A DNA stretch of 64,000 bases, taken from Hirudinaria manillensis (taxonomy: Eukaryota > Annelida > Clitellata > Hirudinida > Hirudinidae). The stretch spans positions 7,765,001 to 7,829,000 of the forward strand of contig CM067534.1 in assembly GCA_034509925.1 (NCBI GenBank), given 5' to 3'. This document shows, in pieces, positions 20,084-56,600 of the stretch (the first letter of the stretch is position 1; each line of letters starts with the position of its first letter). The notes beneath the pieces were generated by a model. It saw nothing but the letters and a program-made list of their open reading frames with translations. It did not search any database and was not told where the DNA came from. A program made the translations under genes and the position numbers.

Positions 20084-21340
20084 CTAGCAGCCAATTTCGG
20101 CCAAAGTTTCGGGACTTTCTGCTCTGAGGAAGGCCACGGAGTTGGCGATTCTGCTCATCAGAGGTCGAAACTTGTCTTCGCCCATGACGGGCTCCCAGAG
20201 GGCGGCGAGTTTTTCCTCGACGAATTTGTCGTTCTCTTCCAAAAGTTCGTCTTCCGCCAGATGAAGGGTGAGGACGATGGCTACTCGCCTGTACGGGGCC
20301 TGTTCGTTGTCGCAGAACCGGTAAAACATCATGGCCGCCTCGGCCGCCAGGGACTCCAGGTGCTCGACCACGGCCACTTTCTTGCCCTCCTCAAAGCCCT
20401 TTTCGAGATCCCCGTCCAACCTCATTTTCACTCTGTCAGCTCTGACGTCCTGGTAAACCAGGCCATTGAAGTGAACGACATCGCTCTCCTTCTGATCAAA
20501 AAGTCTGGCGACTGTAGCTTCATACTTGCGCAGGAAACATCTGCCGCTCGCCGCAGCCTCCTTCGGGACGACCAATAGAATCACGGCAGGATCTCTGGGT
20601 TCGACTTCACTGATGATCGACATCGTAGCAGATCCAGTGATCGTCCAGAACCTCTGTGGCTGATTCTTAAAACTCTTCTGCAATTTCATCCAACTGATGG
20701 CAAACTTGGCCTCAGGGATACCATCCTGATGAGGACTTGGGTTTCTTCCCACCATCCAAATCATCAAACAAAAGATGATGATTGCTGTTATCACTCCACT
20801 AATGATACCTACAATGGATGAATATGAAGATGTGCTGCTCCCTTTCTTATGCTCAGTTTGTTCAATGTAATGTGAGCTGCAACGAACATTGTTCAAGTCG
20901 TTGTGATCTGGTGATGTCTTCTGGCAATCTCTAATTCCCCTTCTGGTGAGACTCGATCCTCTTGAACTACTTCCAGGCGAATTTAAAATTTCCACACGTT
21001 TATAGTATTCGTCGTATTCAAGTTTTATTGACTCTTGAGTTATTTGTTTTTCACCCTTGATTTCTGGAGAACGACCTCTGTCAAGATTTTTCCTTTGTTT
21101 CAACTTTGGTGATCCTTTTGGTGAAGTTTCACTAAGTGATTTCATAGGGCTCTGAAACTTACTTGGAGAAAGGATAGAACATTTGGAAACTTCATCGGGT
21201 GGCAATTCTTCACTTTCTGAATCAGTGAATTCTTCTTTTCCAATATCAAAATGATCATCGACCCCCTTATGGTCTCTAAAGCTTAAGCTGGTATCTTTTC
21301 CCTGTGGACGACTGGAAGGGGATAGAGACCTCTCAGACAT
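20084..21340 (-). CDS. TOR1AIP: LAP1/LULL1-like torsin-interacting membrane protein
   Basis: A single 418-aa frame. The start is the ATG at 21340, since codons upstream are non-ATG. Residues 1-174 are hydrophilic and Ser/Pro/Lys-rich, as expected for a nucleoplasmic or cytosolic domain. Residues 175-197 are one transmembrane helix (GIISGVITAIIIFCLMIWMV). The rest matches the luminal AAA-like domain of vertebrate LAP1: VILLVVPKEA, YRFCDNEQAPYRRVAIVLTL and a C-terminal ending in IGC. These proteins sit in the inner nuclear membrane or ER and activate torsin ATPases by supplying an arginine finger. The segment LMSRIANSV places an Arg (about residue 397) where human LAP1 has Arg563 (GLWSRISHLV), so activation is probably retained. 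It is divergently paired with the DUF3715 gene. No coding intron is needed, unlike its neighbours. Confidence 0.88.
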   Translation of the reverse strand: MSERSLSPSSRPQGKDTSLSFRDHKGVDDHFDIGKEEFTDSESEELPPDEVSKCSILSPSKFQSPMKSLSETSPKGSPKLKQRKNLDRGRSPEIKGEKQITQESIKLEYDEYYKRVEILNSPGSSSRGSSLTRRGIRDCQKTSPDHNDLNNVRCSSHYIEQTEHKKGSSTSSYSSIVGIISGVITAIIIFCLMIWMVGRNPSPHQDGIPEAKFAISWMKLQKSFKNQPQRFWTITGSATMSIISEVEPRDPAVILLVVPKEAAASGRCFLRKYEATVARLFDQKESDVVHFNGLVYQDVRADRVKMRLDGDLEKGFEEGKKVAVVEHLESLAAEAAMMFYRFCDNEQAPYRRVAIVLTLHLAEDELLEENDKFVEEKLAALWEPVMGEDKFRPLMSRIANSVAFLRAESPETLAEIGC

Positions 21341-21953
21341 TTTCAAGTCTACTATGGAGAAAAAAACAATGCATGTTAAATTTGTCCATGTTGAAAATAT
21401 AAATAGAGTTCAAACCTGTAATTTCAGAACTAAATTTTTCTCCTCCGTACCAACAATCACTCGGGGCGACAATCACGGCAAAACAAGCTTCTGCTTTCGA
21501 TTTATCCTTTTATAGGCGATACTATATTTTTAAAAGTAATACAATAATGTGTCACCATTCAGATAGTATCACATACTATTATTTTTACAATATGTTGTAT
21601 AATGTTTAATATTTATTTTAAAATTGATTAACTTTTTGCGCAAAGAAGCCTTTGGATATAATTAATCGGCAAATATGCGGCGTAAATGCACGCGTTAATT
21701 TACGACTTTTAATTTCTTTTGTAGTTTTATTAATATAAAGCGCGTTAATCGATTTCATTGTTAAGCCATGAAATAAGATTGTTGTTGAATTACATAAGAA
21801 CGCGGTCTGCTGGTTGCTAGTCGTTTTAGGATTCTTACAGGTGGCTTCGTGAAGTATTTGACACACTTGTGTAAATATTAAACCAACTCAGTCCATATCA
21901 AATTTGATTTATCCAGATCACTCAGGAGCAATGTCGCTCGTCTCGAAAGGTGA
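21341..21953. promoter_or_regulatory. Divergent promoter region, LAP1-like / DUF3715 gene
   Basis: AT-rich head-to-head 5' region. An ATG at 21931 opens only 14 codons and cannot be joined in phase to the downstream coding exon, so the true first exon of the DUF3715 gene is unresolved and may lie here. Confidence 0.45.
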
Positions 21954-26268: not shown

Positions 26269-29566
<3,298 letters not shown>

Positions 29567-30108: not shown

Positions 30109-34864
<4,756 letters not shown>

Positions 34865-35404: not shown

Positions 35405-38400
35405 TTAACTATCCACATCACTGTCGTCGCTATCATCACCTAGACTATTTTCTATGCAAAACCCTCGACTAACCGCGCTGTTTTCCTCGTAAGCTGGGTA
35501 ATCGTCGAAGGTATTTATGCTATAGCCTTTGTTATTCACAGCAAAGTATAAATCTTCCTCTTCTGCCTAGAGAATATAAAATTTTATTTATTTTCGAGGA
35601 GTTCGAAGGACCGAAGATGTTAATATCATTAGTAATTATTAATGAATTGATATCGTATCTGCATTTTTATTAATTTGCAGATCAAACTCCACCTTTGTTA
35701 TCTTAACATTTTTTAAAACCTTTATGAAGTTTTCCAGGTGACATCCATGGTCATATGACAGGAACAGAAATGGACTGTGAAAGCATAGGTTTGCAAAAAA
35801 TTTAAATTAATATTTTGTAAAATTACACTTTTTTTGGTATTGATTTTGTTGTAATTTCTCACCATTTCTTAAACAAATATTGATACCACCATCGAGTTGT
35901 ACCTCTCAGTGATGGATCTCTTAAAATGTCAGTGAAGAATTTTTTGAATGGGGATGAATGTGGTCTGAACTCTTCTGTTATACATGTTGTGTCGAATACT
36001 TTTGACTGTAATTTTATAAATCATGAATGATTTAAAGTGTTGTTTATATTATCAGTCTATTTAACTAACCTCATATGCATCATCGTATATTAAATAGGCA
36101 GTGTGTAATGCATCCATTGTCTTTACGTATATGATAAAGTCTCTAAAATAAAACATCTTTGAAAGTGAGTGCTGAGGCTCATTGACTAAGAGAGTATTAG
36201 TAACTGGGAAATATTTTTCCATTAGTTTTTGAGTTTTTTTTCTGAATTGTAAATAGGCCGAGCATTTCTCTCCTATTGTTAAATAAGGTTGGTCACTGAA
36301 TGACTCATAAACTCTTTCCATCACCTCCAATTCTATTTTTGACAAAGTCGAGCTTGCCTTTTTTATGCAAAAAATCAACAAAGACATTAAAATTAATAAT
36401 AATGGTAATATTGTTATTATTATTATTACTGTTAATATTATTATTAATTAGTGGGTAATATTGTTCTTCCAAAATTAGAATTACTTTCAAGTGCCACTGC
36501 TAGTTCAGTTAAAAGACTTACATGTTGTATGAACGTAATGGAATTCAGAAATTGGTTGAAAATCCTTCTCAAAAGTGGCATGTTTTCATCTGTGTCTCCC
36601 TCTTCCGTGCACGTCTGGAGGATGTAGAAGAGGTCCCCGACTCTTTCGAGTCTCCTTTTTTCGGTGTACAGGAAAAAGTAAGACAAATTTTCAAAGTAAA
36701 ATGGAGTCTGGAGCTCGCCCATAACGGCGAGGCATTTCATTATGAAGCGAATGAATTTGACTGTACAATGTTCCTAGGAATAAATAATTTGGTCTCATTA
36801 ACTATTTGTGTTAAGTTCACGTGTTCATTTATAAGCACAATATATTATATGTTGTATTTATGTTTTGGGGATTTTACCGGCTTCAAAGGGTAGTAAGTTC
36901 TTATGTACTCCAACATTAGGGCAACTGGGCTACATTTATTAGTAGGTTTTAAGTTTGGAAATTCCATGTTAGCTAGGTCCAATTTATTTAAAACTGCTTT
37001 CACTGTTGGAAAGAATCAACATTTACAAACACGAAATTATAAATTGACTAATGAGTGTAATATTTGTTAAATATCACCAATAAATTTAATTATTTTATCA
37101 TAATTGTTTGTGTTAAGGATTATTACTTTGTTTGGAAAGCCATAAAATAACGTCATTTGTCCGTGCATCAGTGGAAGTAGAAATAGGTATTCTATTCATC
37201 CATATAAATTGTGGAGTGACTGTAATTATTAATTTAAAATTTAGTTTAAATTTTATTACTAAAAAATAGTTTTATTATTAATGATGAACAAAATATTTCA
37301 CTGGATTAACATATAATTTTGTGTTAGGATTGAAAGATTATGGGGTGATAATAACAATTATTGCAACATGTTATCATTACACTCCTGTTGATTTTTATCC
37401 TTATGATTAACATATTCTTTAACATATTAATTTAAATTAATCCATAATACCATCTAAGATCTTCTGCTCTATTTGCTCTTGAACCAACATTAAATGGTTG
37501 TCTAATGCTACCGAAAGGATCTTGATAGCAATCTCCATGTTCAAAAAATGGTGCATTCGGTAATGTATTAATAAATACACAACACTGGAAAAAGATTTTT
37601 TAAAATTATCTTATTAAGTAATACATTATAAAAGTAGCAGTGACCAAATTAAATCGAGTAGCTATAAGCAGAATAAATTGGTAAAATATTGCATTAAACA
37701 TACGTAATAATGTCTGTTTCCTCGAAAGCATTTATATCTCTGAATGTCTTTTCTGGTGAATTTTCAATCAGTTGTAGAAATGCCATGTCTACCATGCGGC
37801 TCAGACCACGTGCCTAGTTTGATATTTTCATTATTGTTATCATTGTTATTATTGTTAATATTTTGAAAATGTATTTTGCCGTTATTTACCGCATATATGT
37901 ATAAGTTGTAGTAACAATGAAAGCCATTCTCTATGAGGTAAGCAATTGTTTCTTCTGAACCAATTTCTAAACATATAAATTGATGAATGAGTTTTACTTA
38001 AAAATTGACTAATAACTAATAATTCATGGCTATTGGTAAATATGTCATGTGTACAAAATGTTCCACGTACTAGTTCCAGAAACATCTTTGCAATTCTCCT
38101 CGCGGTACCAGGTGTTGTCAACTTCAAAAAGCGATTCATTCTTTATTCTTGGTAAGAGGGAACTGAAATTATGTAAAGTTGCTAATAATTATTATTACAT
38201 ATTTATAATATTAATATTTCATAAGATATAAACCAATTATAAATCAAGATTAAATGTTACATTATTTTCCTGTTGAGATTTTAATAATATCTATTTTAAT
38301 CTATTAATTTAATCTATTTTAATAATATTTTTAATAATATCTACATTTAAAGTCGATAGTGTTTTTTACAACTATTATTATTTGTGCAAAATTAAATTGT

Positions 38401-38783
38401 TATTTTAAATATCAATGAAAACATTTCTTAATTATTAATGTACTGATGTACAAATACATGATGTTGAGTCAAACCTTAAATCTGTTGCACATTGTATAAA
38501 TCTCTGATGTGCTTCTTTCTGTAAAGGTTTGTAACCAACTATCCACAGCGTGCGATCCTATAGAATTTAATTAAAAATTTATGTAATTTCATTCAAAATC
38601 AATAAACGTTTTAATTCTTACTCTTCGTTTTGACCAATATTGTTTACTTATGTCATTCAACGTGTCAATTATGTCCTGAGGATCTGTGATCAATTGAAAG
38701 TGGTTAAGGATGTTTACTGGACCAATGCTTAGTTAAATGCCACACAATTTTACTAAAAACTCACTAGGTATGTTAGTCTCCAT
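35405..38783 (-). CDS. Unknown helical protein, tandem paralogue A
   Basis: Thirteen exons: 38783-38765, 38683-38622, 38557-38475, 38140-37998, 37966-37890, 37813-37704, 37584-37451, 37002-36878, 36773-36522, 36357-36070, 36005-35863, 35774-35693, 35566-35405. They join to 559 aa in one frame. I do not recognise the family. The protein looks all-helical (for example TVVYLLIHYRMHHFL, MLEYIRTYYPLKPEH, TPFYFENLSYFF, LRRIFNQFLNSITF), suggesting an alpha-solenoid or HEAT-like fold. It has Trp-Trp-Tyr (TRWWYQYLFKKC) near the end and a strongly acidic Ser/Asp tail (GDDSDDSDVDS), a likely casein kinase 2 target. There is no signal peptide or membrane helix. Its neighbour B has the same exon plan, and the tight agreement of 12 intron phases in both copies supports the model. 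The start is the ATG in a 19-base first exon conserved in both copies. Confidence 0.78.
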
Positions 38784-39453
38784 AGTCTTATTGAAATTCA
38801 TACACAATTAAACTCTTAATGATGGTTGATCTCCATTATGAATTCTAACTTGGAAACAGAAGATTTAAATAGATTGTGAATTTTGAAATTTTATTGCTGA
38901 TTGTTTTATGATTTTATATCTTCATATTTTAACTCAAACTCAATCATCATTACACATCTAAGGACATATGCATTTCTATAAGGATTGATATTGTATTGGG
39001 ACCCAGAGTTTTTACATGGTGCCCTTTATGTTTTCTGGGAATTTTATTGATCCCGGGTCAGAATTGGTGATGATCGACCTCCTGTCTTTTCCAAGTCCAT
39101 GGGCCAATGGGCCTTCGACAGAACTTTGATGGGGCACCATAGATTGTTTGGGCAGTGGAAAACATGAGTTAACCCTGAACAATGGAGAAGATGAGAGCAG
39201 CAATGTAAGAATGAAACAACTTATGTATTGACATTTATAATCAGGATTTCAGTTGTTTTAGTCCGTGATATGTGAATATAAACAAATATAAAACACAGCT
39301 AACAACAATAAATGTTCTTGAATTTTTCATGCTAAATAACATTTTATAGAACCCCATGGTGAAGATCAAGTTGACAGTTTAAAACATTGCATTTAATCAA
39401 TTAATGGCATTTATTGTGAGAAAAAATGGGCTTGATTTTATTACTGATATTGG
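38784..39453. other. Spacer between tandem genes A and B
   Basis: Contains the 5' flank of A (similar to the 5' flank of B at 43467-43700) and the 3' flank of B, with minus-strand AATAAA at 39415-39410. The stretch 38990-39210 is more GC-rich and shares short blocks with 43710-43930. The repeat-unit junction falls near 39341. Confidence 0.6.
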
Positions 39454-43466
<4,013 letters not shown>

Positions 43467-46155
43467 AATCTTATTGAAATTCGAACACATTTAGATTCTT
43501 AATGATGGTTGAACTCCAATATGAGTTCTAACTTGGAAATAGAAGATTTAAATAGAGTTTTAATTTTGGAATTTTATTATACATTGGTTTATGATTTTTT
43601 ATATTCATATTTTAAATGTATTGTCTGTAACTCAGTCCCATCCATCATAAGGACATATGCATTAGTCTATGGGTTCTACATTGCAGCTGCAAAAAACAGA
43701 TGGTTTTTGTGTGGGGAGCCAGAGGTTTAATGAGATCAGATCAGTTAATGACCTGGTCTTCCCTTGTGTATAACCTCACTGGCCCACTCCTTTCCCAAGC
43801 CAAAATCCATTGATCTGGGATAGATTGGTAGACCATCTCCAGCTTGCATGTTTCCCTTTTCGGTATGCTTGCGGGGAATTTTGTGCACCTCTGCCTGGTC
43901 GGAATTGGTAATGAAAGCGTCCGGCGACACCGATGTACCATACGTCGGTCGTGAGGTGTTTAGAGTGTGCCCGGAAGAGGTTGCTTCTAGATGCCGACCC
44001 GAGTCCGCTTCTAATCTGGATTTGCGCAATGCAGGCTCCCTCTCCCGCCCCAAGCCAATCGCGTTGCCCTCAACGGGCCTGCCGATGTCGTTGGTCCAGA
44101 AACATGGAACAGACTGGATCCTGCGGTGACGACAGCACCGCCCTGAAGACTTTTCCATTTAGGGAAAACCACCCACGCTCCCCTCAGTGGCTTTGAAGTT
44201 TACCTGGACATACGCCACTATAATCAACTGAATTATTATTATTATTACTATTACAGATAAGGAAAATTTTGGTTGTTTTAGTCTGTCGTGTAAATATAAA
44301 CAAATATAAAATACGTCTAATAATATTAAATATTTTTTATGCCTTTTGAATTTTCATGCTAGACAACATTTAGATATATTTTGTATTTAATTTCTTGGTG
44401 GAGTTCGTTCTCGTTTGTTTATTTACTTTTGTTATCACCCGGCAGGATCGATTATCCTTTGCAATGGCCTCAATGGAAAATGCTGCAGAATAATTCTTAG
44501 TGCTCGGGCAGCGTAGGGATTGGGATTTTACATGTCAGATGCCGATATTTATAACAGTCGGATTTGTTTGAGAATTTTTAAGGAGAATAACTGGATTTTT
44601 TTATGTTTTAAAATCATGAATTGATGTTTTCGGCACATTAATTTTATTTGTATGGTAGGAAGAATTTTACTTTGTTTACTTTTTCATATTATGGCCATGG
44701 GTTTTTCTTAAATGCTAATTTGATGGCCTGCAGTTCAAAAAGGTTACCCCATAGGAGCTGGAGCTTACAGAGTGGTGATCAAAGTTTTAAGAGGAATGTG
44801 TTTTTGAGTGCATCAAGAGTTGTACTATATGGGGGCTAGGGATTGTTCTTGTTTCATAATTAGGGCTATTTATTATACCAATGATTTTTGGATTTATACC
44901 TTTTTAGGTGTTGGATTAGGGCCCTGTCTGGTATGGTTGCAGGAATTTTGATGTTGGATTTTGTTTTAGACTGTCATGGATCCTTGGTGTAGGGATAGTG
45001 GCACCTTGGTAGGGTGCCTACAGACTTAGAGTACATCAAGTTCTTCAGGTTAGGTTTTGTTACTTGTTGGACCACATTGTATGAGAAAAGTGATTGCAAG
45101 ACCATTGCAAGATTTTAGTTTGTCATGAGACAGTCCTTGCTTTGTTGACTAAGAACATTGTTATGATTTAAGAGCTTTCTTTGTGGTTTCCCATAGTTTA
45201 CTGATAGAATTGGCCATTGTATGGTCAAGATTTTGGTCTGATTAAAGTTTTCATAAGTGGATTTTAATCTAAATGAGTATTCATCTCATTGTGTATTTGT
45301 CTGATGAATTGGAATTTAATAAATTTCTTTATTATAATATGTGTTTAAGACAGTTTGTGGAGAACCAAAGGACAACCTGAGAAAGTAATGGAGTGCTGTT
45401 TTCAAAATGTGAATTCAGTTACATTTTAATGTCAGATATTAGTGTTGATAAATATAAGTTGATAATTTGATGAGAGAATATTTGCATTCATAGGAATCAC
45501 TCACTGAACAAAACTGTCGTCTTTCACGTTGTTACCCAACGCTGCAACAATCATGGCCTAATAGTATCATGAGTTTTTATGAAGTTGATTTTTATTTTTT
45601 GGTTTTGTTGGACATTGTTGGTGAGAAACCCCCTTCGTGGCATTTTAGTTTGCGTACTTGGAGTCTGTATTTGTTGTTCAGAGCTCTTATTTGTTATGTG
45701 TATTTGTATTTTGATTGTTTACGAATTGTTTAATTTATTACTCGAATAAAAATATAGAGTGATTTATGAAATGTTTCGTTTCAGGTGTTAAATGTATTTA
45801 TTAAGTTAAAAATATTAAATTAAACGATGCGGGATTTGGAGCGATTGGAAAATAATTTCAAGCGGGGATAATGATTAAAATAATTTGAAAGTAAATAATT
45901 TATGCTTAATTGAAGTAAAATTCATCCGAGGCGTGCGTTGTGCTACGAACCTGCACTTAGCGAACTGTCGCGTACAGCTATTAAGTGCACTCCGGCTGGT
46001 ACATTGGGATGGTGTAGAACGATGGTTTAATTTACATAAATTTTGATTATTCTGCGGTGTGGGAGTGGATTGTTTTTTGTCATTTTCATTTGTAAGCCCG
46101 TATTTGGTTTCAAAATTAAGGTTCGAGTTCTTACTAACTATAAAAGTCGCTTAAA
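43467..46155. other. Intergenic, gene B 5' flank to mortalin-3
   Basis: Starts with the 5' flank of B, similar to that of A. Similarity to the A flank is interrupted by a GC-rich island at about 43730-44200 and resumes at about 44270-44370. The remainder to 46155 is T-rich on the plus strand with no supported gene. A 137-codon minus-strand frame (43745-44158) lies in the island but has no recognisable family. Confidence 0.55.
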
Positions 46156-49100
46156 ATGGATAAAATAGTTTGCCTTACAAATGCGTTCGATTCAAAATAT
46201 TATTGCTCTTATAAATACTGCAAGGAGGGATTTAAAACACTTCATGAAGTTAATTACCACGAATTTATCTACGGGCACAGTAAGTTTTGAAATATATTAA
46301 GTTAAATTATACTTCTGTAAAAATAAACTATTTATTATAATCGAACTATTTTATTAATAGGTTCTATTTTTAAACAATTCTGCATTACTTGTTTGACATT
46401 CTACAGGAGATGCTGAGCACGGAGAGTGGCTATGCCAACTTTGCGATGCAAAGAACGAAACTGCGAGATTTCTGACTAAGCTACAGGCTATGAACCACCT
46501 TCGCTTCACTCACAAGCTTGACACCAATGAAAAGATTTCATCCAAGAAGCCAAAATTCACGACACAAGATGTTGACGTGAGAGTCAAAGCCACTGGCATC
46601 GATTTCGGAAGGACTAATTCCAGTATTTCCATCATGAGGGGTAACGGCCCTACCATCATTGAAGTTGATGGTGAAAGAACAATCCCATCAGCTGTGGCAT
46701 TCGCAAAAGATGAGGTTCTTTTAGGTAAAGAGGCAAAAAGGCAGCTTCTTGAAAACTTCAAAAGTACGTTATGTGCAAGCAAGATGTTGATTGGCACAAA
46801 ATATGAGGATGCTGAAATGCATAAACTCAGGTTTGTGTTCATTTGTTCATGATACTAGGAGATTAATAGGAAAGAAATATGACGATGCTGAAGTTTTTCA
46901 GGATAAGTTAGCAATTAGGCTTTAGTTGTAGATCTTTACTAGGGTTAGGACTAATAATTTGGATGAGAATCCTGTGAATGGATTATGATTTTCAATCATC
47001 CTTTATGGAACTGATATGTTCTGAGCCACAAACTTGACATACAATCAAACATCCAAATTTCAGAAAGAATCTGTCTTATGCCATCGTGAAGGCATCAAAT
47101 GGAGATGCTTGGGTCCAAGCTCAAGGTGTGACATACTCCCCTGCCAAGATTGCTTCTTTGATTCTCAAAATGCTGAAGACATCAGCAGGTTTGTGAATAT
47201 CGTATTAATTTTAATATTATAATCTTACGATGCATTTCCTTAAATTTCTTTCTTGTTTTTTTTAATTCTAGAAGAAATCCTGCACCAACCAATAGAAAAA
47301 GCTCTAATTAGTGTTCCTGCATACTTCAATGGTCATCAGAAAGAGGTCACTTTGCATGCTTTGAATACCAAATGCAAGCAGTATCAAAAGATGCTTGTTG
47401 TTTTGTCAGGCCACCAAGAAAGCAGGTCAATATGCAGGTTTGAACGTCGTTGGAGTCATCGATGATCCCATTGCTGCAGCCCTATCTTATGGTCTCAACC
47501 TGGAGGATGGCATGTTAGTTAGATTGTTGTCGTGAACTTTTTTTGTGGCCTGAGAGTCTTAGAGGGTTTTATTGATTAATCTAACTTAATAAATAAAGTT
47601 TACAACTAAAGCTAAACGAATCTCATAAATAACTCTAAATTTGATTTAATTATTAACTCTTTTAATATCAATAAATTGGTGACTCCATTGATCATTTCAA
47701 TAGAGTTGCAGTCTGCGACTTTGGAACAGTTTTCGAAGTAACGATCCTGGATGTCAAAGATGGTCGCTTTAAGATCAGAGCAACAAGCAGTGACATTCAT
47801 CTCGGAGGAGAGAGCTTCGACGAAGCCCTGCTTGACTTTCTTGTTGACATGATCAAGAAGGAGGTTGAACCTTGACCTTTCTTAAAGGGTTTTTTCTTAA
47901 TGAATATTTTTGGTAATCACCTCAAATGGAATTAAATAGATTGTTTTTCACAGAACTTATTCTCTTATCTAGGCCAGTAGCCTAATAAAATCATGAGTTG
48001 TAGTTAATATTTTTAATCAAGGTGACCGTTGACTTTTATTGAAGAGTTATTTTCGTATGGATTCAGAATGAAATGCTTACAGTCAAAATTATTTTTCTTT
48101 TCTACTAGGCTACTAGTATTAGAATCATCGTTTTTTTTTTATTAATTTCTAAAATTTCAGCACGGAGTCGACGTCTCTAAAGATCCTGAAGCCATCTCGA
48201 GACTGAGGGAAGCCTCGGAGAAGGCCAAGATCGATCTCTCCGGAGCGGACTCTCACGACATGATGCTGCCGTTCCTCTTCATGGCCAACGGAAGCCCTGT
48301 GATCTTTCGCCATACCATTTCCAGGTCAGAATACGAGAGACTCGTCGATCCTCTCATCAAGAAAACCGTCTTCCTCTGCGAGAATTTGATCGGAGACATG
48401 GAGATCAGCGACATTCACAACATTCTCTTAGTTGGCGGGATGGCAAAGATGCCAAAGGTTGCTACCCTTTTTGGAAATTTGAAAAAATCGATTGAAAACA
48501 TGGTCATGTTCGTGGATGGTTATGTTGAACTCGTTGGGTAATTCTAATTGGATTATATTTCGTCGGTGCAGATCCAGCAAATGGTCAGATCAATCTTCGA
48601 TAGGGAGCCGAACCTCAGCGAAAATCCGGAGTTGTGCATAAGTTTGGGAGCGGCCATACAGGTTAGGCCGGATGTCATCTTTAATTAAATTAACTTTTAA
48701 TTCAAAAAACAACTGAATGAAATGATATAATTCTGTTACAGGCCAATATCTTGTTCAATTCGGTCGCAGATCCTGATTCACTTCATGTCGTACCCCTCTC
48801 TCTTGGCATCGCGACTTTCGGAGGAGTCTTCAAAAAGTGTATCAACAGGAATACCACTATTCCAAGCAGGGGAAGCCAGGTTGAACATTGTGTTTTTTTG
48901 ATTGCAATAGTTAATTTAAACAGATCCTTGCTTATGTCAACCAACTCGAATTCATTCCAGGTCTGTTCAACGGAATATGATGGTCAGACTAAGATCGTAC
49001 TAAAGTTGTACGAAGGCGAAAGAATGATGGCAGCTGACAACACATTCCTCAAGGACTTCCAGTTGGTCGGTATAAATGTCTTATTATAATTGGATACGTA

Positions 49101-50244
49101 ATATTTTAATACGTCGGGATATTCCTCATCTTCATTCATCATCAGATTGGAATTCCACCTGCTCCATGGGGTGTGCCGCAGATCGAAGTCACCTTTAACG
49201 TGGTTGCCGAAGGCGAAGCCAAGGTCACTGCACGAGATAAGGGGACTGGAAAGGAGTGGCAGAGTACGTTTGATTAACCTCTTATTACGAATGGAATGGT
49301 TTAATTAATATTCCTAATATTTGCATTCCAGCTTCGGTCAAATTCAGAAAGTCAAGTGACATCAATCAAAACCGGATACAAGACATCGTAAATGCCGCTG
49401 CACTACATGAGGAGGATGATGAAGCCAGGAAGGTAGGTCCACTTGATAATTAAACTATTTATTAATAATAATTGTTTCAATAATTATTTAAAATGGTTTG
49501 GCCAATTCATTTATATAAGGCATTAACTGGGAAGGTTTGCTTTCAATGATGCCTTGTCATTTAGGATCTCGTCGTTGAGGTGAAGACCGTGCTTTCCGAC
49601 ATAGATTCCGAGATGGAAAAATGCAAGGGCCTTTCTACAGAAGAGGTGAGCAAATTTGAAGTGTTTTTGTTCTGGATGTGTCGAGACTTGCTTTGATTTC
49701 TGTGATTTTAAAACTATTAAATGCTGATGTTGTTGAAATGATTTCGTGAATCGACTCAGAGCTTCATACACTGTTGCAGACCGACCGGTTGAAGGAAGAA
49801 ATCACGAGGATCGACGAGATGCTGAACGACGCATACGAAACTGCTGAAAACGTCAGGAATGCCACGGCAGACTTCCAAAAATCTACCTCCCTTCTAATTC
49901 AGTCAGCTCAGAAAAGGTATCTTCATGTCTTTGCATATGTAGGACGATGAGCTAATCAATGAACACAGTGTAGATTGTATGATAAACAGATAAATGACGG
50001 GCAAGACATTTCACGGGCATAAGTCTTATTGATCTCACGTAGATTTCCAGAGTCAGAAAATAGGGTTAGTTTAAGGGTCTGATTGGAACAGGTCCTCAAA
50101 GATCCCTGCTTATGGGCTGCTCAATTGGCTAAGGCCTGTCAATTGTCCAGCAATTGATTGGATGCATGACGTTTGCCTTGTGTTTTCAGATGGCTGCCTA
50201 GAAAGAAGTTGAAGGACCTGGGTAAGATAAGGGCCAGGAGATAA
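46156..50244 (+). CDS. Chimeric zinc-finger / degenerate HSP70 protein (mortalin copy 3)
   Basis: Fifteen exons: 46156-46279, 46407-46830, 47064-47188, 47272-47345, 47410-47513, 47704-47863, 48161-48457, 48572-48661, 48742-48879, 48961-49065, 49146-49263, 49332-49432, 49565-49645, 49780-49916, 50190-50244. They give 710 aa with every phase agreeing. The mitochondrial leader is gone. Residues 1-78 instead carry two C2H2-like fingers: C17, C22, H35, H41 and C51, C54, H72, H77. HSP70 homology begins at about residue 96. Key nucleotide contacts are altered: DLGTTNSC is DFGRTNSS (Thr to Arg at 110), NEPT is DDPI (267-270), and YDLGGGTFD is CDFGTVFE (288-295). The segment around the catalytic Lys (ASKMLIG) keeps that Lys. 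ATP hydrolysis is therefore unlikely. The substrate domain is diverged but complete. A one-base loss in exon 14 shifts the end into a basic tail ([17 protein letters not shown]). It may be a nuclear or DNA-binding derivative, or a recent unitary pseudogene; the intact frame favours a gene. Confidence 0.78.
46854..46912 (+). pseudogene. Relic of a mortalin exon 3 end in an intron of copy 3
   Basis: ACTAGGAGATTAATAGGAAA and the bases after it match the end of exon 3 of copy 2 (31098-31157), including the first intron bases GTTAGC. It sits 23 bases after the donor actually used (46830), which instead resembles copy 1. It encodes [15 protein letters not shown] but is skipped in the model. Confidence 0.75.
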
Positions 50245-50641
50245 AGCATCACCATGATGCTAATAACTGATCAAAACTAAATTTGGCAGCTTAATAGGTA
50301 ATTGGCCATTTACGCTTTTTTGTTGTTGAAATACTCTGAAACGCTTTTTGTTTCCAATGATGAGTCATTTATTTGTACTGCACAATGTTCGCGAGAGCCG
50401 GACGGTCGCAGCATTTGTTTTTGTGATTCCATTATCAAAAGTGCCGAGAATCTTTTTTGAGCGGACGTTTCTGATTTTTTAAACGCTCGGATCAAAAACA
50501 CTTAAATTTCTAATGGGTCTCTTGTTTTGAAATTACACATTACGAACGTCACAAACAATTGGTCAGAAAAATATCAATGCAGCCTGGAGGGAGGTGACTT
50601 TTCCAGAGTCTGGAGGATGCAAGTCGTTACTTGCCCTAGAC
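50245..50641. other. Convergent spacer, mortalin-3 / INTU
   Basis: Short region between two 3' ends. Minus-strand AATAAA at 50373-50368 fits INTU, about 270 bases after its stop. No clear plus-strand poly(A) signal for mortalin copy 3 was seen. Confidence 0.55.
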
Positions 50642-53600
50642 TCAGACGAGGCAGGTTCCGTGCATCAACTTGAAAGCCATTTCCACGGCATCTTGTCGGG
50701 CGGAATCATGGAAGCAGACGTAAAATTCCGAGTCGTTTTCGCGGCCGGTTTTCGTCTTCCTCCTGTCGGGTTTCGTTTGTTCGTGGGTTGAGTTTTGGAA
50801 AAAGGGATGAGAACAAAAAGAGAACTTGTAATTCTTAAAATACTTGGATTACGTTGCAGGGAATATATTTTACTAATTTGGGGAGGAAGACAATTATTGA
50901 CCAGACCAATTATTTACGTTTTGTCTGAGGGTTGGTCGTTAATTTATTATTTAATGTTCAAAATAACAGATTCAAACAATGATGCCTCCCTCTGTTTAAC
51001 CATCAAATTCAATTAGATGGTTCATAATCTTAAAATACGATAATACTCAATAATACAATACGATAATACTTACTAATAATATACAATAATACATAATAAT
51101 ACAATACCATAACACTTAATAATACAATACCATAATGCTTAATAATGCTATACGATAATACTTGATACGATCTAGAAGTTTGTTACTTTACTGACCCGAC
51201 CACCCAGTAATCCATCTGCTGTTCCGCATCTTCGGCAGAGCCTCTGAAGTTGAACCTGTTGCACCTGAAGAGGATGCCGTGCTCAAGGACTGCATCTCCG
51301 AACTGATTCTTTAAAGCAATTCGAATGAACAAACACGTGAGAACATATTTCAGGCGTTATTCAAAAGCCTGCGACAAACTGAGCTTAAAAAAAGCGTTTC
51401 TAGTGTTTCACGTAGTTTGTTATTAATTATTTTATTTATTTATTTATTAATTAGTTATAGTTAGTTTATTGGCAGAATAGCAGATCTCTATTCTTATAAT
51501 TGCTAATTGATGGTCAATATGCAATTGAATCCAGACCGGTGATAGAGCGAAGAATTCTTGAATGAGTAGGCAGCTTTCGTTGAACTTCTGCATGACCTCC
51601 GACTGGGTCAGAGATGCCTGGGACATGACCTGCTGTTGTGACGGTGCGACGATGATGCCTCTTGAGGCATCGACGAAAGCGTAGTTGAACACGGTGCTGT
51701 TGTTGCCGCTGTTGATCCTGTTCATTGAACAGTGCTTTGAAAGTATGGACGTTTAAATTGTTCCAGGTTGTAATGAATGCTTGTCTGGAAACACGGCCGC
51801 GTTTTTGAAAAGCCAGAGTAAAAATTAAAGCAGAGCTGATGGTTTTCAGCTGGAATAAAATAATTCCAGGGCCCTAATCCTAACTGGGCAAATTAAATTC
51901 AGCGCTTTCGAGACATTAACGATGATTAATGCATTAATCAATGAAATCATCATTTGATAATTACTTGACGTAGGGTGACCTGATGGAGGGCGGGGGTTGA
52001 GAATAAGATTTTAAAAAGTCAGAGATTTTGTTGAGCTGAAGTTTCTGAAAAAAAAACATCAGCAAATCATCATGCAATTAAATAAATAAATAAATAAATT
52101 TTAATTAAGCAGTCAAGAGAAGGACAGCTAGTTACCGTTGAAGAGGTTTTGTGAATGTTTTCCATGGATGACTGTCGAGTTGGAAAGTCATTTTGACTCC
52201 AGATGTCATCGATGTCTCTCTCGTCATCAAACTCCTCCTCTATGAATCTCTCGTTCTCCTCAAATTGGTTCCTCAAGTACAGATTGCTATCTGATAGAGT
52301 GAGAAATAATGTGAAACTAATCTGATCAAATCTTTATTTATTTTTTAAATTAAAAATTGTATATTTAAAAAAAACATTTGGGAAAAATATTGAATCAATA
52401 TTATTATATTGAATAACAACCCGAAAGTTGTCTGGACAAAGGGCCTCTTGAATTACTGAGGTCAGATTGAGACGAACCAATATTTTGACTCGAGGGGAGG
52501 ACAGCCTTCTGTTCATCTTTGTTCCTCTTGAAAAGCTTTTTAAATTTGTCTGTGATCTTCTCCACGACTTTTGACTTTGGTTTCGTCAGAAACCATTCGA
52601 CATTGGAAATACATGGCCTTCCATTCTTGATGATGCTGCATGGCAGTTGTGGTGTTTTTATGATTTTAAAACAGAGTAAATCAGCATTATGAGTTTGAAA
52701 AATGGCTTGAGAATTTTACATTTTGTAAGTTTTATTTTTATTTATTTAACAAGTCAGTAAATTAAAAGAGCAGGCTTCAACATAATATTTTAAGAATTTT
52801 ATTTCAATGCATTTTGACATTCACCAAATGAATTACAATCGTTCAGCAATTCCGCACTCGAGGCAACTTCAAAACAAAACAAAGTTTCAAGAAATTAAAA
52901 GAAATTCGACTCACAAATCATCCAACAATTCCATCAGGCCTGCAATGGCCATTTGAGCCAATGTGAACTTTAACCTGTTGAGGAGGAAGAGGTCAGCGTA
53001 AGGAACCTGCCCGACGAGGTCGGACGACCTTTCATCGCAGCTGAGAAGGACAACCAGTACAGAGTTGTCCTGAGCAAAAAAGAGCACCGAATACAGTCTT
53101 AGCCGATAACTTTTAACCAATTCAGTCAACTAATTAACAACTTATTAATAACCAATTTATTGACTTCATCTCCGACTACGGATGAACCTGCATATTCACC
53201 ACTGTTAATAATACCTACAATTATACCAACATTTTTGATCTCATTCACCAATGAAGGTCGCAACTCATCAGTCAGTTTCATCAACTAACCCAGCAAACCC
53301 TACACGGACCCATTTCTAGACCCTATCAACCAGACCTGCTCACTTACTCACTCACTTGCTCAACCACTCATCACCTTCCCAATTCTTATCTGAGCCCTTC
53401 CAACCCAACACTCCCTTTGGGTATTCATGACTAACACAGAAAAACTAAGACGCTAAGTCCGAAAAAAGCCAGATCCAGCAATGCCTAAACATTCACATCG
53501 GGAATGTGTCACCAAAACTATCAATCATTCGCCAATATCCAGTTACCACCAGCAAACCCCCATTTTGAACACTCATCCCAACCCCAACATTTACAGAGAC

Positions 53601-56600
53601 AATCAACTAATGCATGTTTTCAGTACCAAAACCAAAAAAACAAGACGGAGCAGAAAGCAAACAAGTAAAATTCCATTGGAAACAAAACAAACTGCCATCT
53701 CTGGAGATGAATCGACTCTTAAATTTAAAAAATAACATTTCATGCTTTTCGTGACAAAGGATGAGCAGCAAAGGTTCAGAAAGAAAAAAAAAAGGCGCTG
53801 AAATCAATCAAAATTCCAACGGTCTGCATTTTGAGAAAATCCATCGGTCAGTCTGAGAACAACTGCCATCGATAGAACGACGACTACGACGGCTTCACAA
53901 GAACGTCTTGACTCGACAAAGGACTGCATAGTACAGCTTGGTCAAGTCGGCCTTCGAGGTCTTGTCTATGCCTCTTTCGGCCGTCAGCTTATCGAAGAAG
54001 TCCTTGTCACCGGTCACGATCTCCTTCAGGTTCGTCAGAGTCGGCACCTCTCCGCTCTCGATGAAGTCGCCGAAGAGCTCCTTCAGTCTCTCGACGTGCT
54101 CGTCGTTCCAGGCCATTCTCCTCTTCTTTCCGTCCTTGGAGTCGAACGACCTGTTCTGAAGAGGAGACTTCTTTTCCTTTTTGCCCGACAGGTTCAGGGA
54201 GGAGCTGAAGACGGGCGAACCGTCCACGGAAAGTCCCGACGTGCCGTCGTCGTAATTTTCCCCGCCGTCTTCCGAGTCGCCGTCGAGATGGAAGTTGACG
54301 TACCTCCTCGGCCTGGCCGAGCGAACGTTCTCCTCGTCGCCTCGAGACTTGCCTCTCGTCACCATGGCGGTTCCTTCCTTCGAGGTCAAGTTCGATGACA
54401 CTTCTGCCGCCAACTCCTTCATGGTCTCGGACGTTATGGATCGACGCAAGTCGTCGTTCTTGAAGGCTTTCGAAAGGATGTCTCGCGACTCGGCAACGGC
54501 CATCTGCAGGCCCTCGGTGGTCGGGAAAACGAACGGACAGGCTGGATGCTGCCTGCCTAGCACTTCTCTGACTTTCAGATAGGCAGCAAAGAGGGGCACG
54601 AGCTCGCCTCCTACCACCAGCCTTACTGAAGTCTTGCCATCGGGAATGGCATAGTAGAACAGGCCGTCAGATTCGGTGCTGGTCAGCAGAGAAGACATGA
54701 CGAAGTTTTTCAAAACACGAGGATTGATGGCATTCTCGACGCTCATTCTCACGATCATGTGGTCCCTGAAAGTCGTGAAAGAAGTCATCCAATCCGTCTC
54801 TAAATTGCTGGTATCGGCCTTGTCCGCGAACTTTCTCATCTCATCTTCGAGATCCTTGACCTCGTCTGACTGGAGGTAGTCCAAATAGTATTGCGATATG
54901 GGCAGCTCAGACGATCTCTTTCTCTTTCTGCCCCGCTTTCTGATCCCTCTCTCCTCGGACAACTCATCACCAGCAAAAGAAACCCTCTTTTCCTGCTTGC
55001 AAGTTTTCTCCTCCTTCTCTGCCGCTTCCACGTAGATTGGAAGTGAACAATCGATCCAAGTCTTCAAACATCTGGCAGTATCTGGAAATCTCAGTGCCAG
55101 GAATTTGGAAAATTGATTAAATGTCTCCAGATTCGACAAAACTTGTGAGGGCCTCCTAAGCTTTTGATAACATTCTCCGAGCAACTTGTCGAAGTAAAAC
55201 TTAATGTCATTGTCATTTTCAAAATCCTTCACATTCTCAAATTTCATCTCCTTTAAAAGTTGTCTAATATGATTCACACTTTGATGAGGATTGCATCCTT
55301 TTGAACAACTGAATTCCATAAAACAGGAAAAATCAGAAAGCAACTCATCATCAATATCTCCTTGGCTTGGAATTGCAATATGCAAAGGACCCATACCATC
55401 TAACTCCATACTGTTTTCATTGCTAGTTTCATTGCTTTTACAAATCTTTCTCCAACCTAGAGATTTATGATTTAAGACACTGGATTTCACCTTCACAGAT
55501 TTCTTTACAGTTTCTGTTAATTGCTTTCCACTCAAGCCATGCTTTGAAGCAAGGTGATGATGCAGTGCCATGAAGCATCCTGCACAAATAGGGCACCGAC
55601 GCTTCTCCACGACATTTGAGGCAGTTGTGAGATGTTGATATTTCAAAAGAAAATGAAGAGAGTTCGACACTTTGTGATATTCCCGAACGTGTAGCGGCAA
55701 ATTCCGCACTTTCTCAGTGCACATAGGACATGGAAATAATATTCGCCTTGCTTTGATCATTTTATCGTCTAAAATAAAAATATCGACCACTTAAAAAAAC
55801 ATCCGAAGAAATAAAGTGTTCGAATCTGAACTAAAAAGTACGCTAACGAGTACTTCGATAGAAACGAAGGAATTTGTCAGACATATTCTCGTAAACCGAA
55901 ATATAAAATAATTTGAAAATCGTACAAAAATAAACAAAGACGCAGTACTAACTATTGTAGTGCGATTCTCCTCTAGAAATGTTATTATAAAACTCCTTAA
56001 ATTATACTCGTATCAGTGGACTTATATCTTCAAACCAGCCACTCAATAATAAACGACTACCAGCAAAGATTAAAAATAAAGCTGTTTTTTTATTGAGGTA
56101 ACAAAATTTTAAAATTATAATAAACAAATTTCTCCACTATAATACGCGATTTAACGGCAGATATAATAATAATAATAATAAAATGTAAACTAGTTTTAGC
56201 GGGCTGACAATAATAATCCACTTCCTCGTCGAATGCTCTCGAAGGTTGGTTAGTTCCATAGGTAGCGTCGACTAACTAGTTATGTTGGAAGCCAACAATT
56301 AACATGCTCCTTGCGGAGAGAATTTAAGTTGCATTTCGCCAGAATAAAGCTAATTATTGCCATAATAAGATAAAGGTAGAGATCGTAATAAACGCTAGCT
56401 GGAGTAATAACTTTGTTTTTGGTCACTTTTTATTAATGGAGAATGAGTGAAAATTTATTTTTGGATGTGGTGACCCGATGGAAAAAAATCCCTTCTGTTA
56501 ATGGGATCTTGTGGTTTGGCCACGGCGGCTTGCTAAAATTCAAATCAGACCAGATTCCCCTCAAATTGACTCAGGATTTTTTGAAGGATAAATTTTAAAT

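Follow-up and report, generated by a model that had tools for sequence, protein, structure and literature searches.

A chimeric finger-HSP70 gene beside two mortalin genes, with a retained reading frame and a probable pseudo-chaperone as its product

Why does a gene of the HSP70 family with an altered ATP site keep one open reading frame through 15 exons, with two finger-like motifs in the place of a mitochondrial leader? The question is raised by the third of three mortalin-type HSP70 genes (copies 1, 2 and 3) on the + strand of a 64,000-nucleotide window, the whole stretch of DNA analysed (C9:7765001-7829000 of a host genome of 148 Mb in 23 contigs). The reading favored here, which is considered rather probable, is that copy 3 is a chimeric protein-coding gene with its frame kept by selection and its HSP70-specific constraint lost, its product being placed outside the mitochondrion and predicted to be incapable of running the ATP/J-protein cycle. 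The chimeric gene is the well-supported part, and the pseudo-chaperone is probable.

Copy 3 (46156-50244) is assembled from 15 exons into 2133 nucleotides, equal to 710 codons and a stop, with no internal stop and with GT-AG borders in 14 of 14 introns. The exons are arranged as follows.

46156-46279, + strand: exon 1, start codon and finger 1 (codons 46204-46278), ending in phase 1 with a GTAAGT donor
46407-46830, + strand: exon 2, finger 2 (46433-46513), a linker of about 20 residues with KKPK (88-91), the HSP70 start, T>R at residue 110
47064-48879, + strand: exons 3-9 (47064-47188, 47272-47345, 47410-47513, 47704-47863, 48161-48457, 48572-48661, 48742-48879), remaining nucleotide-binding domain, interdomain linker and start of the substrate-binding domain, with NEPT>DDPI (267-270), the LGGGTFD deletion (after 290) and VLLLD>PDSLH (477-481)
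48961-49916, + strand: exons 10-14 (48961-49065, 49146-49263, 49332-49432, 49565-49645, 49780-49916), remaining substrate-binding domain and lid region
50190-50244, + strand: exon 15, basic tail, residues 693-710 (18 residues), read in a frame other than that of the last exon of copy 2

The order of two C2H2-like fingers followed by a mortalin-type HSP70 in one frame bears out the in-frame fusion put forward in a preliminary description of the locus, as does the placing of finger 2 and the HSP70 start within the single open exon 2. The HSP70 part matches PF00012 over residues 104-687 (profile positions 2-594 of 599) with 542 bits against a cut-off of 20.6. The continuity of exon 2 bears on an improbable alternative, in which the locus holds two neighboring genes, the finger exons ending elsewhere and the HSP70 exons starting at an internal methionine; the next methionines, M70 and M118, would serve such a start, whereas the common frame of finger 2 and HSP70 in one exon and the lack of the first two exons and leader of copy 2 speak for one gene. 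Just upstream of the start codon, at 46132-46150, a TACTAAC motif stands shortly before an AG, and this could be a splice acceptor, used either for an untranslated first exon or in trans-splicing.

The origin of the HSP70 half is read from the two other mortalin copies.

26269-29566, + strand: mortalin copy 1, 663 amino acids, with leader exons; the outgroup
30109-34864, + strand: mortalin copy 2, 667 amino acids, retaining its leader exons; source of the HSP70 half of copy 3

A tree built with 200 family members groups copies 1-3 as one clade (support 1.0) and makes copies 2 and 3 sisters (0.889), in agreement with the earlier naming of copy 3 as a third mortalin paralogue; the branch lengths are 1.21 for copy 3 and 0.02 for copy 2. 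Copies 2 and 3 have 13 introns at the same places, and the identity of the intron sequences exceeds the mean of 10 shuffles in 12 of these (0.56-0.90 compared with 0.45-0.54), the last common intron being hardly above it (0.45 compared with 0.43). The phases, described earlier as matching, do so in 12 of the 13 common introns and fail in the last, which is phase 2 in copy 3 and phase 0 in copy 2. DNA similarity to copy 2 begins at 46577, within copy 2 exon 3, and the two leader exons of copy 2 have no match in 44001-52000 (BLASTN against the copy 2 region, E up to 1e-3), so the HSP70 half is taken as a 5'-truncated duplicate of copy 2. The loss of the mitochondrial leader stated in the preliminary description is likewise found, with finger exons in the position of the leader exons of copies 1 and 2. 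Copy 3 therefore resembles its mortalin/HSPA9 parent in exon order, shared intron phases and alignable introns and differs from it in lacking the leader, in the altered ATP site and linker, in the two N-terminal fingers and in the basic tail. The segment 47864-48457 (intron 6 and exon 7) is closer to copy 2 than the rest, with an intron 90% identical and an exon synonymous divergence (dS) of 0.28, and is probably a later gene-conversion tract from copy 2. Copies 1 and 2 show a comparable block at 28383-28896 and 33352-33871 (the exons from AGVLSG to KEQQ), where the protein is identical and dS is 0.06 with flanks of about 1 and 2; from these values this is gene conversion of copies 1 and 2 with each other. 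The copy 2 intron at 33069-33174 has GC-AG borders, is GT-AG in copy 3 and has no counterpart in copy 1. A mortalin-like fragment on the minus strand at C9:1672189-1672455, 58% identical to copy 2 over 89 residues and containing two TAG codons, is probably a pseudogene.

The finger ligands are found where the preliminary description had placed them, at C17/C22/H35/H41 and C51/C54/H72/H77. Finger 1 has the spacing C-X4-C-X12-H-X5-H with F and V in place and fits the strict classical C2H2 pattern, while finger 2 (C-X2-C-X17-H-X4-H) fits a loose pattern only. Two loose patterns occur in 0.011% of 100,000 shuffles of copy 3 residues 1-95, and the strict pattern is present in one of 760 stop-to-stop stretches of the window, that one being finger 1. 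A search of the host genome with residues 1-100 yields a single further locus (C9:8847918-8848037, minus strand), and the reverse search from that gene finds only these two finger genes in the genome.

C9:8.8469-8.8482 Mb, minus strand: second finger gene, a gene model of 336 residues with the first exon inferred

This gene, about 1.04 Mb from copy 3 on the same contig, carries finger 1 and then finger 2, separated by a phase-1 intron that interrupts the same arginine codon as in copy 3. The modules are identical in 32 of 82 aligned pairs, and seven of the eight ligands fall in aligned columns (a 9e-4 chance at this level of identity), the eighth being one residue off. Over 76 codons the nonsynonymous divergence (dN) is 0.55 and dS 3.7, which is saturated, by NG86, and 0.51 and 1.34 by LWL85. 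Finger 1 of the second gene reaches only E 5.8 against zf-C2H2_4, below the cut-off. Chance fingers are ruled out by the shuffles together with this second gene. The pattern GEWxCxxC has 15 matches in the genome compared with 4 in a backward control, and only two of them, copy 3 and the 8.847 Mb gene, have a finger 1 upstream in a 1500-base scan; several of the remaining matches we take, from their surroundings, to be PHD-like or RanBP2-like fingers.

The two finger loci are also alike in their flanks, each lying head-to-head with a member of one orphan gene family.

40067-43597, minus strand: orphan-family gene, head-to-head with the copy 3 finger exons
36000-38917, minus strand: second member of the orphan family in the window

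The 40067-43597 gene aligns in five inverted pieces, at 66-72% DNA identity, with C9:8853140-8855993, which adjoins the second finger gene in the same orientation to the fingers as at copy 3. The family has at least 26 matches in the genome, 15 of the 26 being on C9 and several in tandem arrays, and the two window members have no Pfam match. The second finger gene is thus like copy 3 in its two fingers, its intron and its orphan neighbor and differs in what follows the fingers, which is a coding minisatellite of eight full, near-identical 26-residue repeats in place of the HSP70. Because copy 3 combines the introns of copy 2 with fingers and an intron found again in the second finger gene, it is a chimera in which a truncated mortalin duplicate is joined to an orphan finger gene. 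A copy of copy 2 running from exon 3 to the last exon, and so without leader, has been placed behind the first exons of the finger gene, its frame continuing that of finger 2. Most simply, this locus once held a finger gene and the truncated mortalin took the place of its 3' part, with the order of these events being inferred.

What has happened to the frame since is seen from the changes that are missing. The indel rate was taken from 8 of the 13 common introns (888 aligned sites; common introns 1, 3, 6, 8 and 13 left out), where copies 3 and 2 are separated by 19 gap events, 14 of them not multiples of three. With half of the gaps assigned to copy 3, about 14 frameshifts are expected in 593 codons and none is present (P(0) 8e-7). 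Similarly, 586 codons hold no stop compared with 7-17 under simulated neutral change, giving Poisson P(0) values of 9e-4 to 4e-8; of 2500 simulations per rate, 3 stayed free of stops at the lowest rate and none did at any of four higher ones, and one set of 300 runs (0.9 changes per codon) included a zero-stop run. In-frame and frame-shifting indels, the exon counts being read by eye from alignments, are divided 6/0 in exons and 5/14 in introns (Fisher p 0.0026), or 6/1 in exons if the change at the last intron is counted (p 0.021). The earlier remark that the open frame is hard to explain for an old pseudogene is upheld by these figures. An old unprocessed pseudogene left open by luck would suit the long terminal branch (1.21 compared with 0.02 for copy 2) and a neutral-like spread of replacements, and yet with the stops and frameshifts expected of it absent, and with replacements that are conservative, this explanation is very improbable and is rejected by frame survival.

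The ratio of nonsynonymous to synonymous rates (omega), a comparison with copies 1 and 2 proposed in the preliminary description, was estimated with a three-branch codon model with copy 1 as outgroup. For copy 3 it is 0.494 for the full set (591 codons), 0.613 without the conversion block of copies 1 and 2, 0.578 also without exon 7, 0.541 for exon 7 only, 0.578 for the nucleotide-binding domain and 0.441 for the substrate-binding domain and lid, a range of 0.44-0.61; the values for copy 2 in the same order are 0.042, 0.034, 0.039, 0.002, 0.021 and 0.249. Fixing omega at 1 for copy 3 gives twice the log-likelihood difference (2dlnL) as 21.3, 5.3, 6.2, 0.7, 5.8 and 14.4, so that neutrality is rejected in five of the six data sets, modestly in three of these. 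Weight is put on the values 5.3-6.2 because the conversion block, included in the full set and in the substrate-binding domain and lid set, distorts copies 1 and 2 there. Frame survival is, on these comparisons, stronger evidence of selection than omega, and statistically the frame has been kept by protein-level selection for most of the history of copy 3.

Gene conversion from copy 2 offers another way of holding a frame open, by repair in place of selection. The tract at 47864-48457 looks converted, copies 1 and 2 have converted each other, and as the intron identities vary (0.45-0.90) smaller tracts are possible. Of the other 12 exons measured, however, 11 have an NG86 dS to copy 2 of 0.62-1.28 and exon 2 has one of 4.2, and copy 3 departs from copy 2 at 229 of 586 residues, which makes repair scarcely credible; with one clear tract only, it is set aside.

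The replacements show which constraint remains. They were placed on a family alignment of 200 of 211 retrieved proteins of 600-720 amino acids, with 586 columns compared and a column being called invariant if it is at least 98% invariant. The differences of copy 3 from copy 2 fall on 115 of 302 invariant columns and 114 of 284 others (38% and 40%, p 0.67), a ratio of 1.05. Copy 1 compared with copy 2 has 18 of 302 and 54 of 283, a ratio of 3.2, and four other HSP70 stretches of the genome (longest open frames of 280-285 amino acids, three covering one region of near-identical paralogues) have variable/invariant ratios of 2.13-2.19. By this difference, HSP70-specific constraint is gone. The replacements are otherwise those of a protein, with a mean BLOSUM62 score of +0.05 compared with -0.40 to -0.71 in simulation, 71% of changed hydrophobic residues remaining hydrophobic compared with 48-54%, 0.9% of replacements going to proline compared with 5%, and 21.8% of new residues known elsewhere in the family compared with 14.5-16.3%. 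What selection has preserved seems to be a foldable protein and not a chaperone. With introns used as the yardstick instead of dS (those that align better give a Jukes-Cantor distance of 0.278 for both branches) the relative amino-acid rate would appear higher, and there may therefore have been episodes of positive selection.

At the ATP site, the phosphate-loop replacements listed in the preliminary description, GTTNS>GRTNS, NEPT>DDPI and LGGGTFD>F-GTVFE with one residue deleted, are confirmed by alignment, and its term of a ruined site is justified in that the changed columns carry the usual residue in all aligned family members having a residue there (198 of 200 with two gaps for the column of R110, and 200 of 200 for those of D267, D268, I270 and GGGT). 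Alignment with DnaK gives, in DnaK numbering, T11R, R167G, N170D, E171D, T173I and a deletion at GGGT. The linker is PDSLH for VLLLD, and the J-domain docking residues R167, N170 and D393 are G264, D267 and H481. The roles of T11, D393 and the linker are treated in the accessible part of PMC12406271, and R167 is given as important for J-domain function in that of PMC7289447. The residues matching D8, K70 and D194 of DnaK are unchanged. Copy 3 has neither the usual GTTNS, NEPT and GGGTFD loops nor the hydrophobic VLLLD linker and docking residues of an ATP-driven chaperone, and a normal ATP cycle would not be expected. In the favored reading the HSP70 fold most likely serves as a fixed binding or scaffold body without the ATP/J-protein cycle.

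Hsp110 and Grp170 are HSP70-fold, non-canonical partners, Hsp110 binding ATP, and Hep1, a zinc protein partnering mitochondrial Hsp70, is a protein in its own right whose zinc fold is of another type. Copy 3 would share with these systems the HSP70 fold of a non-canonical partner and a putative zinc domain, the one in Hep1 working with mitochondrial Hsp70. A divergent HSP70-like helper that still works, such as a holdase independent of ATP or a nucleotide-exchange partner of the Hsp110 type, would explain the nearly whole-length PF00012 match and the retained K70 and D194 equivalents; the constraint ratio of 1.05 compared with 2.1-3.2 in the control HSP70s, and the changes to the linker and to the T11 gamma-phosphate contact, make it rather unlikely.

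At the C terminus exon 14 has lost one base at its end, which shifts the frame of the last exon; the frame of copy 2 would stop there at the fourth codon. The last exon is therefore read as a new basic tail, the last 19 residues having 10 K/R and 1 D/E in copy 3 and 5 and 7 in copy 2. K-K-x-K motifs number two in copy 3, one in copy 2 and none in copy 1. The lack of a leader, the finger module alike in two genes, the basic tail and the K-K-x-K motifs indicate that the product is probably not mitochondrial; for a nuclear location the missing leader, the tail and the two motifs are weak hints. If the gene is transcribed and the fingers bind zinc, they would aim the HSP70 body at a nucleic acid or protein partner. 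A tentative possibility is that copy 3 encodes a zinc-finger-aimed, ATP-independent pseudo-chaperone outside the mitochondrion, probably nuclear, in which the HSP70 fold forms the body of a protein that binds DNA, RNA or chromatin.

Several results count against the reading of copy 3 as a working chimeric gene with these properties. The replacements are blind to family conservation, the neutral simulation giving 0.51 at invariant columns compared with 0.50 observed, and by that measure alone copy 3 looks neutral. The rejection of omega = 1 is modest without the conversion block (2dlnL 5.3-6.2) and absent for exon 7 alone (0.7). Neither AATAAA nor ATTAAA is found within 1.5 kb after the stop, and ACTAAA (+32) stands about where copy 2 has AATAAA (+30); the changed poly(A) signal together with the neutral-like spread of replacements would count against a simple working gene. 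Mean acceptor scores are 7.37 in copy 3 and 8.24 in copy 2, with donors at 6.99 and 6.30, on a matrix built from copies 1 and 2 and hence tilted to them. A Pfam profile search places no finger family in copy 3 at threshold, and a single-sequence AlphaFold2 model of exon 1 is poor (pLDDT 60), with strands only and no helix. E171D on its own would not be fatal to the cycle since, in the accessible part of PMC12406271, it keeps ATP-stimulated release. No fusion is named among the best 120 of 5546 protein-database matches to the whole of copy 3, for which the alignments cover 81-91% of its length, and residues 1-95 give three candidates with none at E<=10. The 120 mortalins listed are 66-73% identical to copy 2; the absence of a fusion says little because the database seems to lack close relatives of this animal.

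These points lend themselves to an account in which copy 3 was functional for most of its life and died recently, leaving too little time for the frame to be lost. It would accommodate the altered poly(A) signal, replacements that strike conserved columns as readily as variable ones, and the differing frame of the last exon. The lowest neutral estimate is about 21 disabling changes over the branch (7.1 stops, 14.0 frameshifts), and a death within about the last 14% of the branch would leave none with a probability of 0.05 or more. Such an account must still explain an omega of 0.44-0.61 and the conservative replacements, and it concedes that the fusion was functional; it is thought unlikely, though not negligible.

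A literature search at the level of titles and listings did not turn up any paper describing C2H2 fingers joined to an HSP70, and the pairing appears to be new as far as the database and literature searches reach, its mode of origin being of a known kind. EXOV of Arabidopsis is reportedly a gene born by partial duplication; copy 3 is like it in being a partial duplicate with a fast-evolving product and differs in that the missing 5' part is supplied by the zinc-finger exons of another gene. Duplicates of mitochondrial proteins that are relocalised after losing the N-terminal targeting signal are described in the accessible part of PMC2790464 and share this loss with copy 3; a zinc-finger fusion, present in copy 3, is not mentioned in that part.

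HSP70s are among the most conserved proteins, and under a new N-terminal module copy 3 has kept its frame and protein-like substitutions with HSP70-specific constraint lost, so that selection for a foldable protein would be separated from selection for chaperone function within one gene. Should the zinc-finger-aimed reading prove true, exon capture would have given rise to an HSP70 derivative whose parent, finger-gene relative and fusion point can all be read in one genome. The birth of a pseudo-chaperone is open to direct testing here, copies 1 and 2 serving as internal controls.

Two other stretches of the window lie on the minus strand. An open frame of 631 amino acids at 53895-55790 contains CxxC...H finger-like stretches with no Pfam match above the cut-off, and the gene at 20084-21409 has a LAP1 C-terminal AAA+ activator domain (E 4.6e-25).

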